Shown here: positions 39,778 through 44,864 of the stretch, piece by piece
Layout: each line of letters starts with the position of its first letter
How positions within the stretch are numbered: position 1 is the first letter of the stretch
From: Cyclobacteriaceae bacterium
GTDB taxonomy: Bacteria > Bacteroidota > Bacteroidia > Cytophagales > Cyclobacteriaceae
DNA length: 64,000 bases
Assembly (NCBI GenBank): GCA_016787565.1
Contig: JAEUUG010000009.1
Span: 186,001-250,000, forward strand
Direction of reading: 5' to 3'
The notes under the pieces: model-generated
The model's database searches: none
Seen by the model: the letters and a program-made list of their open reading frames with translations, nothing else
Told to the model about the DNA's origin: nothing
Made by a program: the position numbers and the translations under genes

Positions 39778-40092
39778 TTAATATTCTGTATTTCGGTCGA
39801 TTTTCAGTTTCTCGATCATAAGCGGGCTTATGGATTCAGCATAAGCGCCATACGCATCGACCACAATTCCCTTTACTCCAGACGTAGAAGATATTGCGTA
39901 CAGCACCGAACTGTCATCCGGGTTCGTCATGCCTTCAAAACGATGCACCTCATCAACATGAAATTCCTCCGGCTTGAACTTCAGTTTTAACGGAGGACAC
40001 TCTATCCATTCAGGATGAAGATTAAAGTCCTGATCATACCCCTTATTCTTCAAGACCTGTATAGCCTCGGTCAATGTTTCAAAGGGTTGCAT
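39778..40092 (-). CDS. Small conserved protein (often mislabelled phosphoribosylpyrophosphate synthetase)
   Basis: A 104-residue cytoplasmic protein from the ATG at 40090-40092. The pattern FETLTEAIQVLKNKGYDQDFN, then LKFKPEEFHVDEVHRFEGMTNPDDSSVLYAISS and GVKGIVVDAYGAYA is that of a small family common in Bacteroidota. Databases frequently name it phosphoribosylpyrophosphate synthetase, but it is a third of the length of Prs and lacks the PRPP-binding loop, so that name is probably wrong. It follows the caspase gene by 22 bp and is the last gene of that set. Function unknown. Confidence 0.75.
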   Translation of the reverse strand: MQPFETLTEAIQVLKNKGYDQDFNLHPEWIECPPLKLKFKPEEFHVDEVHRFEGMTNPDDSSVLYAISSTSGVKGIVVDAYGAYAESISPLMIEKLKIDRNTEY

Positions 40093-40114
40093 GCTTGTTA
40101 GTGTTTTACCAGCT

Positions 40115-41587
40115 TTAAAACTTAAAATAGAATTCACCAATGATGTTCGAACTATCCCAGGTAAGTTGTTTGTCGCCCGACATCCGTAACACATTCAAGC
40201 GGACTTCCTTAAATACTTGCTCGATCGTAAGTCCGGGTTTTCGAAGGGCTTTGAGTAACTCCTGAGTATACAACCCATTTCTTCCCGATCCATCGGAAGC
40301 CACAGATCCGGGTGCGGTAGCATACGCGATAAACGATCCGCGGCCGCGTTTCATTTCACCCAACCCCTGGCTGACGGAGCGCGTGGCTGCGGGGAATGGA
40401 TTGTTTCTGCAGGCATCAAGGATAACAATGTTCATGCGGGAATTCGATCGCTCCATGTTGGCCAATACCATGCGCTGAACAGGGAAACACATGCGTGAAA
40501 TATCGTCTTCAAATTCAACTTTGGCATCGATTGGAATCATGTAATTCTCTGACTCAAACTGCACACCATGGCCGGCAAAATAAAACAAACCAACCGTCTG
40601 GTCTTTAGGTCCGTTTGCCAGTTTTTCATTGAACTTGCGCATGGCCTCACGCATTTGAATATAGGTAACATTGGTGAGCAACTGAACCTCAAATTTTGAA
40701 CTCTGAAGTTCCTTTGCCAAATCCATTGCATCGTTTACCGGATTGCGCAAGGCACCGATTTCTTTCGGATAGGCACTGTTACCGATTACCAGGGCATACC
40801 GTTTTTCATTGGCATACATTTCCGCCAGGGCAGATTTAGCATCCACTGCCGTTGCTTCCGGCTTCAATTCCTTAACGGATTCTGTGGCAGGTACACTTGA
40901 AATAACAACCGGGTTTTGAGCAGCAGGATTATTCTTATTTTGTTTGTCAACAGATTCTTTTTTGGGAGGATCTGTACGTGGTTGAGTTTCCTGTTTATTC
41001 TGCTCTTTTTTTGAATTCGATGCTACATCTTCCTGTTTACCGCTTCGGGTTTGCCTATTCAGGTTGTTCAGTTCATCTTTAATCGACTCATCGTTAGGAT
41101 TGAGTTTTGTTGCCGCTGACAGATCGTCAAATGCAGCCGTAGGGTTATTGGATCGGGAATAAAGCTGCCCGCGTTCAAAGAGCAACTTGGCATGTGTTGC
41201 CTTATCGCTTCCCAAAATTTTGATAGCCTTACCATATTCGTCCAGCGCTTTCTGCGATTGCCCAAGACGATCGTGTGACTTTGCCAAAAACCAATGGATA
41301 TTCCCGGTGTTCGAATGATTGAACTCAATGGCTTTCTCAAAGTCGGGAATCGCCATGGCATAGTCAGACTTTTTATACTGCGATAACCCACGGTAATAGT
41401 AGACTTCGACATCAATTTTCTTATCCTTAATGAGTTTGGTGAAGTAATCATTAAAGTAGGCTATGGCCTCATCATACTTTTGCGCTTTGTAACTCTCCAA
41501 TCCATTTTCATATTGTTTGTATTGCGCCAGTGACGTACCATGCAGCACAAGAAAAAATAAGAGAAAAGATAAAACCGAAATGCGCAT
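40115..41587 (-). CDS. Exported TPR-caspase (peptidase C14 family), copy B
   Basis: A 490-residue protein with signal ISVLSFLLFFLVLHGTSLAQ, three to four TPR-like repeats (about 25-175 from the earlier ATG), a low-complexity Lys/Gln/Pro/Asn linker (about 180-255) and a C-terminal caspase domain. The domain opens RYALVIGNSAYPKEIGALRN; counted from the ATG at 41602, the catalytic His is about 345 in FYFAGHGVQ and Cys about 398 in VILDACRNNPF. It lacks the p10 subunit of metacaspases, as bacterial orthocaspases do. Expected location is periplasmic or outer-membrane associated. The preferred start is the ATG at 41585-41587. A paralogue lies at 42.6-44 kb with a barrel gene between. Confidence 0.88.
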   Translation of the reverse strand: MRISVLSFLLFFLVLHGTSLAQYKQYENGLESYKAQKYDEAIAYFNDYFTKLIKDKKIDVEVYYYRGLSQYKKSDYAMAIPDFEKAIEFNHSNTGNIHWFLAKSHDRLGQSQKALDEYGKAIKILGSDKATHAKLLFERGQLYSRSNNPTAAFDDLSAATKLNPNDESIKDELNNLNRQTRSGKQEDVASNSKKEQNKQETQPRTDPPKKESVDKQNKNNPAAQNPVVISSVPATESVKELKPEATAVDAKSALAEMYANEKRYALVIGNSAYPKEIGALRNPVNDAMDLAKELQSSKFEVQLLTNVTYIQMREAMRKFNEKLANGPKDQTVGLFYFAGHGVQFESENYMIPIDAKVEFEDDISRMCFPVQRMVLANMERSNSRMNIVILDACRNNPFPAATRSVSQGLGEMKRGRGSFIAYATAPGSVASDGSGRNGLYTQELLKALRKPGLTIEQVFKEVRLNVLRMSGDKQLTWDSSNIIGEFYFKF

Positions 41588-41609
41588 ACGTAAACTCAAC
41601 ACAAAGAGA

Positions 41610-42464
41610 TTAGAAATTAAACGTCAAACCAAACTGTAGGTTTACTGAAGGAAATCCCTTTTTCACCATCGGATATTCCTCTGTTACAGCATCAATAGTG
41701 CCGCCCTCGTACGATGAGGTGCTGACAAACGTAAGCGGAAAGGTATACCCGAAAGCTGCCTGCACATAAATGGATACAGGCTTTGCGGGCATAAATTCAA
41801 TTCCGGGACCAATAAAAATACCGCCTGTAAATTCCGTTCCGGACTGCAATTTGTCACTGATCTGAACACCCAGTTCTGACCATGTGGGATCATTGGCTTC
41901 CCATGGGACTTCCGCCAGGTAAAGCCATTCATCCGGATCGTAATCATTTCCGTAAAGTTCAGCTACCCCTTTTACCGCAGAGCGGGATACCAGTGTAACA
42001 AAAGGTTTAGCAAAACCATACACTGAAATCTTAGAATCATCTTTCACGGGAACAAAATTCAACTTGAGGTTAAGTGCTGCCGATGTAAGGCCAAGATCAC
42101 CTCCGGTAAAGTTGATAACCATTCCCAGGTCATAGAGGTAGTTTCCAAATTCATCATACAACTCACTGATGAAGGCATTGTTAAACCCAGTCTGTTCAGG
42201 ATCATATTTAAAACTAATGTAACTGATGGATGGACCAATGGAGAAAACCCGGTTTACCCGCTTGATAAATCCAGCTTCGAAACTAAAGCCGGTACTGTAA
42301 TCACCAATGTTTTTTCCCAGGGTAAAGGAAGGACCACCGCCAATGAAAATTCCTTTGCTTCGTTCAAATCGGTCTTTCTTCACCACAGTACCTTCGTCCT
42401 GGGCGAGCAAGGCAAACGGTATGATAAACATTGCTATAAGAAGACTGTAAAATTTGGTTTTCAT
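41610..42464 (-). CDS. Outer-membrane beta-barrel protein between two caspase genes
   Basis: A 284-residue exported protein with signal KFYSLLIAMFIIPFALLAQ. The mature chain begins RSKGIFIGGGPSFTLGKNIGD and continues with alternating strands such as FSIGPSISYISFKYD, SAALNLKLNFVPV, GGIFIGPGIEFMPAKPVSIYVQAAFGYTF-type segments and the final SVNLQFGLTFNF ending in Phe, a usual barrel C-terminus. It is longer than the PorT-like barrels elsewhere in the window. It sits 7-22 bp upstream of caspase copy B and 89 bp downstream of copy A, so the three are likely one unit. Function unknown. Confidence 0.8.
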   Translation of the reverse strand: MKTKFYSLLIAMFIIPFALLAQDEGTVVKKDRFERSKGIFIGGGPSFTLGKNIGDYSTGFSFEAGFIKRVNRVFSIGPSISYISFKYDPEQTGFNNAFISELYDEFGNYLYDLGMVINFTGGDLGLTSAALNLKLNFVPVKDDSKISVYGFAKPFVTLVSRSAVKGVAELYGNDYDPDEWLYLAEVPWEANDPTWSELGVQISDKLQSGTEFTGGIFIGPGIEFMPAKPVSIYVQAAFGYTFPLTFVSTSSYEGGTIDAVTEEYPMVKKGFPSVNLQFGLTFNF

Positions 42465-42553
42465 AGATTAAGATGGTTGTGCATTCTACGGTTAAGGTAC
42501 TAGGTAGTGAACATAAAATCTGCCTACATGTTCATGTAGAAATACCCGCAGTC

Positions 42554-43951
42554 TTACTGGAGCTTGAAAAAAAACTCTCCAACGATGTTCGAACTATCCC
42601 ACGTATATTGCTTATCACCGGAAAGGCGAAGAACATTCATGCGCACTTCCTTAAAAACCTGCTCAATGGTTAGTCCGGGTTTGCGCAATGCTTTCAACAG
42701 CTCTTGTGTGTACAAACCATTTCTTCCGGTACCATCCGATGCCACCGAACCTGGAGCTGTAGCGTAAGCAATGAATGAACCCCTCGCCCGCTTCATTTCA
42801 GCCAGCCCCATATCAACACCCCGCGAAGTTGCTGGGAACGGATTATTCCGGCAAGCATCCAGAATAACAATATTCATCCGCGAATTTGATCGCTCCATGT
42901 TGGCCAGTACCATGCGTTGCACCGGAAAGCACATCCGTACCACATCATCTTCAAATTGAACTTTGGCATCAATGGGCACAAGATAATTTTCATCCTGATA
43001 TTGAACACCATGCCCGGCATAGTAAAACAAACCAACGGTTTGATCTTTCGGACCATTCGTCAATTTATCGTGAAACTTGCGCACCGCTTCGCGAATTTGT
43101 ACATAGGTTGCGTTCGTGAGTAACTGCACCTCAAAATCTGAATTACGAAGTTCCGTTGCAATGTCTGTGGCATCGTTTACCGGATTTCTTAACATCCCGA
43201 TTTCTTTGGGATAATTGCTGTTGCCAATGATGAGGGCATACCGTTTTTCATCTTTGTAGGCCGATGAAAGCGCGGGTACCAAACCCGTGTGCACAGACTG
43301 GTTCTGCTGCACCTGTGGTTGATTCGACTGCGGTTTAGTTTCGGATGTTGGATTATTCTTGACAATCACCTGCGTAGTTTTCTTCTCCTCTCCTGCCGTC
43401 CGGGTGGTGGGCGTTGCCGCAGACTTTTTAAGCGAGGCGCTGGCAATTTCCGGATTGTTGGGGTCAAGTGTTTTGGCTTGCGCCAGATCTTGCTGGGCTG
43501 CAGCTGCATCGCCCTGCCGGCTAAAATACTGCGCACGATCAGCTAAAATCTGCGCAGAAAGTTTTCTGTTTTTCTCTGCCGCTGTAAGCGCGAGTTTATA
43601 ATTGCTAATGGCTTCGGTTTGTTTTGCGAGTTTATCGTGGCACCGCGCCATGTACCAGTAAATCGTTCCTTTATTATAATGATTGAGCGCCAAACTCTTC
43701 TCTAAATCATAAAGAGACTTTTGATACTCATGGGTGTTGTAATACGAAAGGCCTCTGTAAAAGTATAAGTCCTCTTCTATCTTCTTGTTACGTTCGCCCT
43801 CTGCAAGCAGGCCTGAAAATTTATCGATTACAACCTGGTATTCACCAGCCTTGTAACGCGCAATACCATCATCGTAGGTTTTGTAGTCCTGGGCGGAAAG
43901 AAAACCCGAAACGAGCATCAACATCAGTAAGCCAAACCAAGACTGCCTCAT
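42554..43951 (-). CDS. Exported TPR-caspase (peptidase C14 family), copy A
   Basis: A 465-residue paralogue of copy B with the same build: signal SWFGLLMLMLVSGFLSAQ, TPR-like repeats (22-165), a Thr/Gln/Asn-rich linker (170-225) and a caspase domain beginning RYALIIGNSNYPKEIGMLRN. Catalytic His is about 314 in FYYAGHGVQ and Cys about 367 in VILDACRNNPF. The C-terminal 70 residues (GLYTQELLKALRKPGLTIEQ and the SGDKQYTWDSSN segment) are nearly identical in both copies, whereas the linkers are unrelated. It is the first gene of the set. Which proteins it cuts, and whether it needs calcium or processing, cannot be told. Confidence 0.88.
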   Translation of the reverse strand: MRQSWFGLLMLMLVSGFLSAQDYKTYDDGIARYKAGEYQVVIDKFSGLLAEGERNKKIEEDLYFYRGLSYYNTHEYQKSLYDLEKSLALNHYNKGTIYWYMARCHDKLAKQTEAISNYKLALTAAEKNRKLSAQILADRAQYFSRQGDAAAAQQDLAQAKTLDPNNPEIASASLKKSAATPTTRTAGEEKKTTQVIVKNNPTSETKPQSNQPQVQQNQSVHTGLVPALSSAYKDEKRYALIIGNSNYPKEIGMLRNPVNDATDIATELRNSDFEVQLLTNATYVQIREAVRKFHDKLTNGPKDQTVGLFYYAGHGVQYQDENYLVPIDAKVQFEDDVVRMCFPVQRMVLANMERSNSRMNIVILDACRNNPFPATSRGVDMGLAEMKRARGSFIAYATAPGSVASDGTGRNGLYTQELLKALRKPGLTIEQVFKEVRMNVLRLSGDKQYTWDSSNIVGEFFFKLQ

Positions 43952-44065
43952 ATTCTAGTTATTCACAATCAGCAATAAAGATAGTCAACAGAATGTATTA
44001 TTGAATCCTTTGCATGAACGTTTTCGCTTCGGTTAGTAAAAAATATCTATTTTTGGCCCAACTGC

Positions 44066-44236
44066 ATGCGAAGTCTAATCCTTCTTTTCCTCTTGTTCTT
44101 CCTGGTTCTGCCTTCGTGCAGCAAAAAATCCAATTCATCCGCTACTATGGTTAAGCCCAAGTATCACCATCGGTGGTATGACCGTAAAAAAGACAAGCAT
44201 ACGCCCCGAACCAGGCAAGTGAAAATCAGAAAGTAG
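44066..44236 (+). CDS. Small basic lipoprotein, 56 residues
   Basis: A short gene that automated length limits would miss. It reads MRSLILLFLLFFLVLPSCSK, a textbook lipoprotein signal with Cys18, followed by a 38-residue basic tail rich in Lys, Arg and His (KPKYHHRWYDRKKDKHTPR). TATTTTTG, an exact TAnnTTTG box, sits at 44048-44055, but this would leave an almost leaderless message. The gene is divergent from caspase copy A and converges with the TetR gene, whose stop is 1 bp away. No known family; a surface or periplasmic peptide is expected. Confidence 0.55.
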   Translation: MRSLILLFLLFFLVLPSCSKKSNSSATMVKPKYHHRWYDRKKDKHTPRTRQVKIRK

Positions 44237-44237
44237 A

Positions 44238-44864
44238 TTAAAGTCCCTTGATCAGGTTGTCGATGTTTTTGCGAAAGAAATGCTTCAACGGACTTTGTTG
44301 ATTAAGGTGTGCGGTAACAATTGAACCCAAAAATACAGACGTTAATAAGTTTGTGATGTCGCGGGTTGAACTGGTTTTTGTAATCTCCTTTTTAAAGATG
44401 GCTTCGAGGGTAAATTTCTCCATCATTTGATCGAGGGAAAGTATTTCAACGGAAGTTATGTTGTCGATATGCGGAAAGAGTAATTTCTTTTCTTCCGGTT
44501 TAACCGGAAAGGGTTTTGGTGGCCTCTTCAAATCCGCCAGATAACCAATCAGGCTCAGCATCAAGCCGGGATGGACTTCGCACTCTTCCGCCAGTTTATC
44601 AAACAGATAGTACACTCCGGTAATACCCTCTTTTGTTTTTTGCTGCAAATCAACCGAGCGGCTCAGGCACCATATCCGAAAGTGATACAGCAATACATCT
44701 TCCTTTTGCGGGAAGTATTTGAAAAATGTAACCTTGGATATCTTCACCTTCTCACAGATATCATCCACATATAAATCTTCAAAGGGTTTCTTTCCGATCA
44801 TTTTCTGGGTTTGTTCCAGAATATGAACTTTCAGGCGCGCAGCCTTTTCTTTTCGCAGGCTCAT
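44238..44864 (-). CDS. TetR-family transcriptional regulator
   Basis: A 208-residue repressor-type protein. The N-terminal DNA-binding domain has the TetR pattern: KVHILEQTQKMIGKKPFEDLYVDDICEKVKISKVTFFKYFPQKEDVL, split here as helix 1 and the helix-turn-helix VDDICEKVKISKVTFFKYF. The C-terminal ligand-binding region is diverged. It is divergently transcribed from the gamma-glutamyltransferase gene with only 59 bp between, so it may regulate that gene and itself. An inverted repeat in that gap is a candidate operator. Confidence 0.92.
   Translation of the reverse strand: MSLRKEKAARLKVHILEQTQKMIGKKPFEDLYVDDICEKVKISKVTFFKYFPQKEDVLLYHFRIWCLSRSVDLQQKTKEGITGVYYLFDKLAEECEVHPGLMLSLIGYLADLKRPPKPFPVKPEEKKLLFPHIDNITSVEILSLDQMMEKFTLEAIFKKEITKTSSTRDITNLLTSVFLGSIVTAHLNQQSPLKHFFRKNIDNLIKGL

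Follow-up and report, generated by a model that had tools for sequence, protein, structure and literature searches.

Organization of the caspase locus

The window, a stretch of 64,000 nucleotides (G000:C6:186001-250000, from an assembly of 18 contigs with a completeness of 89%), belongs to a genome whose nearest named relatives are Chryseolinea and Chryseosolibacter. We found casA, a barrel gene and casB in this order on the minus strand, separated by gaps of 89 and 7 bp, with a small gene beginning 19 bp past casB, and the coordinates, strand and gene order given in the first-pass annotation of this DNA agreed with ours. The features of the locus are as follows.

44238 to 44864, minus strand: TetR-family regulator upstream of the gene set in Chryseolinea-type loci, a candidate regulator outside the core pair
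43976 to 43983, minus strand: putative promoter TATCTTTA upstream of casA, proposed from alignment and consensus resemblance only
42554 to 43951, minus strand: casA, a TPR-caspase of 465 aa (apparent signal peptide, TPRs, linker, Peptidase_C14), paralogue of casB and facultative neighbour
42524 to 42539, minus strand: inverted repeat CTACAT-GAAC-ATGTAG in the gap between casA and the barrel gene
41610 to 42464, minus strand: OmpA-type barrel gene, 284 aa, apparent signal peptide, predicted 8-stranded outer-membrane barrel (residues ~33-284)
40115 to 41602, minus strand: casB, a TPR-caspase of 495 aa with an apparent signal peptide, found consistently downstream of the barrel in relatives; TPRs ~27-187, low-confidence linker ~190-262, C-terminal Peptidase_C14 267-492
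39778 to 40095, minus strand: small downstream gene, 105 aa, optional, with no Pfam or NCBIfam match

casB begins at GTG 41602 or, a few codons later, at an ATG in the same frame, and the neighbours of the caspases in the window are the barrel, TetR, GGT and the small gene. Upstream of casA, TATCTTTA aligns in most relatives with TACCTTTG, which is a Bacteroidetes -7-like TAnnTTTG. In two relatives both arms of the inverted repeat's stem are changed (CCCCAT/ATGGGG), and the folding z-score of this region in the window was unremarkable; we rejected a strong intercistronic RNA hairpin, with a z-score below -2 in only one of the five folded stretches. An Rfam scan returned tRNA-Asp and no other named RNA. 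A further small gene, unlisted at first, lies divergent from casA at 44066-44236 on the plus strand and encodes a 56-aa basic lipoprotein (lipobox LPSC, motif VKPKYHHRWYDRKKD). Its family was present in 82 of 196 family genomes and in half the genera, many without the barrel, and we rejected it as a part of the system. A Dps-like gene adjoins the caspase locus in L046, L048-L050, L057, L058, L110 and L111.

Conservation of the barrel and its downstream caspase

Of 390 family genomes, 39 gave a match to the barrel protein (four of these matches weak and partial), and the samples of the order (390 genomes) and of the phylum (345 genomes) contained no barrel outside the window's own family. Among the 34 relatives' loci that we fetched (L044-L077), 33 hold the downstream side of the barrel, and L055 stops at a contig edge. 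A TPR-caspase was located directly downstream of the barrel in all 34 informative loci (the window and 33 relatives), with a gap of -23 to 38 bp. Moreover, the pairing was kept at a barrel identity as low as 29% and in at least five genomic contexts: the GGT-TetR loci, a second shared context (L059, L060, L062-L064), a third (L068, L070, L073-L075, L077) adjoining genes that resemble ribosomal proteins L9 and S6, and others (L061, L071, L072, L076). Order and adjacency of barrel and caspase were constant while TetR, casA and the flanks varied. The barrel and caspase trees agreed (distance correlation 0.62, with 0 of 999 permutations as high, and 15 of 29 splits shared), a congruence partly expected from shared descent. 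In one relative (L057, 1805-3132) casB is broken into two overlapping ORFs, a frameshift or an assembly error.

We consider it very probable that the pairing of barrel and casB is obligate, and the findings suggest that the barrel and an exported caspase make up a bipartite proteolytic unit of the cell envelope. The coupling of an exported caspase to an outer-membrane barrel, as first annotated, was thereby supported: the two were adjacent in every informative locus, also where their surroundings differed, and they are neighbours in close relatives. The claim that three genes and the small gene make one set was not supported. A complete caspase-barrel-caspase triad occurred in 12 loci (the window, L045-L054 and L056), and 22 loci had the barrel-caspase pair without casA. 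Chryseolinea serpens DSM 24574 (L042), a cultured strain, is among the carriers of the triad. Two genomes had TetR-casA with no barrel beside it (L110, L111); the L111 genome has a barrel-casB pair elsewhere (L071), and the family-genome search gave no barrel match in the L110 genome. The small gene is present after the set at 39778-40095, as had been noted, but not every relative has it, and where present it lies some 100 to 750 bp downstream.

Caspase domains and predicted specificity

Pfam Peptidase_C14 (PF00656) matched casA (1.6e-40) and casB (1.2e-40), with scores of 139.6 and 140 bits for the two caspases against a cut-off of 21.4, and TPRs were present in both. H345, C398, D291, D396 and D437 (casB numbering) were conserved in 46 of 46 aligned caspases. 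The two proteins are therefore paralogous caspase-fold proteins with TPRs and a His/Cys dyad (H345/C398), as the first-pass annotation had it, and the p20 fold above the Pfam cut-off together with the catalytic His and Cys makes them C14/orthocaspase members. With regard to a separate p10 domain, the PF00656 match in casB (267-492) extends to the C-terminus, and low confidence in the caspase loops of the casB model (pLDDT under 50) limits what the structure can show. VIA-align with this model gave TPR matches only, so it is Pfam, phmmer and Foldseek that support the caspase fold. Both casA and casB appear to carry signal peptides, with junctions read by eye from the sequence (LSA/QD in casA, SLA/QY in casB). 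The Pfam scan found no T9SS C-terminal sorting domain, and the C-terminus is taken up by the end of the caspase domain.

Among solved structures, the paracaspase MALT1 was nearest in sequence to the catalytic domain (1.2e-13), which shares with it the DxCR motif and acidic residues at aligned positions, the invariant D291, D396 and D437 aligning near MALT1 pocket residues; the catalytic dyad aligns with MALT1 as well. MALT1 itself is cytosolic, has death and Ig domains, and lacks TPRs and export. MALT1 is Arg-specific, and as the closest solved relative it therefore indicates Arg at P1. Outside the caspases, the C14 members that have been characterised favour Arg or Lys at P1 (PMC5756287). We predict from the sequence that casB is an orthocaspase cleaving after Arg or Lys.

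Divergence of casA and casB and the TPR groove

In the window, casA and casB were 83% identical in their caspase domains, 34% in their TPRs and 23% in their linkers, and inside single genomes the catalytic domains of A and B were 74-83% and the TPRs 28-35% identical. The caspase domains had been called nearly identical, which overstates the 83%, and the linkers do diverge, but not alone, as the TPRs do too. This contrast between domains had also been taken as a sign of two regulators or targets. However, A-A orthologues differ in the same way (88% in the caspase domain vs 62% in the TPRs), and because orthologue TPRs also diverge faster than caspase domains, the A/B contrast is not by itself evidence of two regulators. 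Ongoing gene conversion between casA and casB was rejected as a general process, A and B being separate in the TPR tree. The catalytic domain of the window's casB (40115-40810, minus strand) alone carries A-type residues (4 of 6 diagnostic sites), the TPR of this protein being B-type, and a local conversion may have taken place there long ago.

In TPR motifs, positions 2, 5, 9, 12, 13, 33 and 34 are ligand-facing and in general the most variable (PMC1261162). Nine of the 28 ligand-facing positions showed an invariance of at least 90% across 32 barrel-linked caspases, a set that leaves out L076, the most divergent pair. Five of these nine (Y38, Y69, L73, K77, N101) were altered in the casA clade, vs 3 of 108 other TPR positions (Fisher p 0.0095, with the TPR register set by hand and sites treated as independent), and because casA and its relatives form one clade, the five changes amount to few events. 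All of these barrel-linked caspases (32/32) have K at residue 77; casA has H, F or N there, L076 has T, and two barrel-less TPR-caspases (L116, L117) have H. The casA of L110 and L111, with no neighbouring barrel, has the same groove as barrel-linked casA, and therefore the groove change is not attributable to barrel loss. These five changes are better evidence of altered specificity than the domain contrast, and casA is probably a separable duplicate with changed specificity.

The barrel protein

Against Pfam the barrel gave only a sub-threshold OMP_b-brl_2 match. An AlphaFold2 model built from 8 sequences (pLDDT 67) matched OmpA/NspA-type barrels with VIA-align Z of 16.7-18.4 (NspA, Z 17.5, 154 residues, 3.2 A; OmpA barrel, Z 16.7, 135 residues, 2.1 A), and both Foldseek and VIA-align grouped it with the OmpA, NspA and OprF barrels. 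The match spans most of the barrel in this model of pLDDT 67; the beta-barrel first annotated between the caspases is thus found again, and we predict from sequence and model that it lies in the outer membrane. The signal-peptide junction, read by eye from the sequence, is LLA/QD, and the Ala-Gln junction recurs in relatives. The mature N-terminus QDEG..KK.R (residues 22-32) precedes the first strand and, by analogy with OmpA, would be periplasmic. Conservation was 0.63 at residues 22-36 vs a mean of 0.52 elsewhere (rank 29 of 270 sequence windows). A paralogous barrel beside gliding ABC genes, without a caspase, also keeps G25 and R32, so the tail is not peculiar to barrels with a caspase partner. 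Two weaker barrel paralogues (26% identity; L078 6698-7780, L079 6888-7691) lie between a GldA-like ATPase and a GldF-like permease, with no caspase. A mobile origin of the locus was rejected on one tblastn search of plasmids with the barrel protein and, for phages, a search of PHROGs profiles with four window proteins, in both of which the barrel had no match.

Proposed mechanism and alternatives

We propose, at a little under an even chance, that casB is a periplasmic Arg-specific orthocaspase docked on a dedicated small outer-membrane barrel and that casA is a duplicate with altered TPR specificity. The functional unit would be barrel and casB: the barrel, small, 8-stranded and OmpA-type, would be exported and insert in the outer membrane, casB would be exported to a presumed location in the periplasm, and its TPR groove may bind a conserved ligand, most plausibly the short periplasmic face of the barrel or its N-terminal tail (QDEG...R). 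Direct docking by itself we likewise put at a little under an even chance. With the groove bound to the barrel, proteolysis would be kept at the outer membrane or switched by it. casA would derive from an old duplication, with the catalytic pocket retained and the TPR groove altered, and for this reason its partner is probably a different one and the sequences that it cuts are probably similar. A fuller version, a two-component envelope switch in which the OmpA-type barrel is a sensor or an anchor at the outer membrane and has direct control of the periplasmic caspase-like protease via the TPR groove, with casA retargeted to a different signal, is possible but doubtful.

Alternatively, barrel and caspase might only be co-transcribed in one envelope response, with no contact, as the upstream TetR, the promoter-like motif before casA and the existence of casA without a neighbouring barrel would allow; we find this rather unlikely, since the pair stays adjacent and in the same order in several contexts as TetR, casA and flanks change, and since groove residues fixed in the barrel-linked set are altered in casA and in two barrel-less TPR-caspases. 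It is also improbable that the barrel is a substrate and not an anchor, with casB trimming or degrading it, perhaps at the basic N-terminal tail or in a periplasmic turn, and thereby controlling a surface receptor or envelope protein. The invariant R32 and the basic stretch in the predicted periplasmic tail suit a protease with Arg/Lys at P1, and one operon would couple protease and target; however, R32 is also kept in the paralogous barrel with no neighbouring caspase, and the invariance of the TPR groove residues favours stable binding over cleavage alone, though cleavage is compatible with it. A suicide or anti-phage protease module, like gasdermin-activating or CRISPR-linked TPR-caspases, is very improbable: a generic PADLOC caspase model matches both caspases (2.8e-12, 2.7e-11), but casA and casB appear to have signal peptides, the gene between them encodes an OmpA-type barrel, next to which no gasdermin or CRISPR effector was recognised (no gasdermin model matched among the scanned neighbours), and the barrel had no match in the plasmid and PHROGs searches.

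For the docked pair that we favour, partial counterparts exist. TPR-CHAT (Craspase) and gasdermin-activating caspases likewise join TPRs with a caspase-like protease; they are cytoplasmic defence complexes, and we know of no export or outer-membrane partner for them. The barrel resembles OmpA/NspA/OmpX-type 8-stranded barrels in predicted fold (Z 11-18), but it shares 10-16% sequence identity with them, is lineage-restricted and has no OmpA peptidoglycan-binding domain. Export signals and TPR domains are on record for prokaryotic metacaspases, as are operons with several metacaspases in four bacterial groups, Bacteroidetes among them, and 14 metacaspase operons with OmpA domains (PMC3501461). 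Like these metacaspases/orthocaspases, casA and casB have the C14 fold, His/Cys dyad, TPRs, apparent N-terminal export signals and neighbouring caspase genes; unlike them as described, the caspase is paired across contexts with a stand-alone small barrel that has no Pfam family of its own, and we found no earlier description of this pair in open-licence literature. For the study of exported prokaryotic caspase homologues, a fixed outer-membrane partner gives a defined pair, in which K77 and N101 of the TPR groove and R32 of the barrel tail are handles on docking and substrate choice. Two further C14 genes (L003, L004), long open frames of 1035 and 1084 codons, are located elsewhere in the genome.
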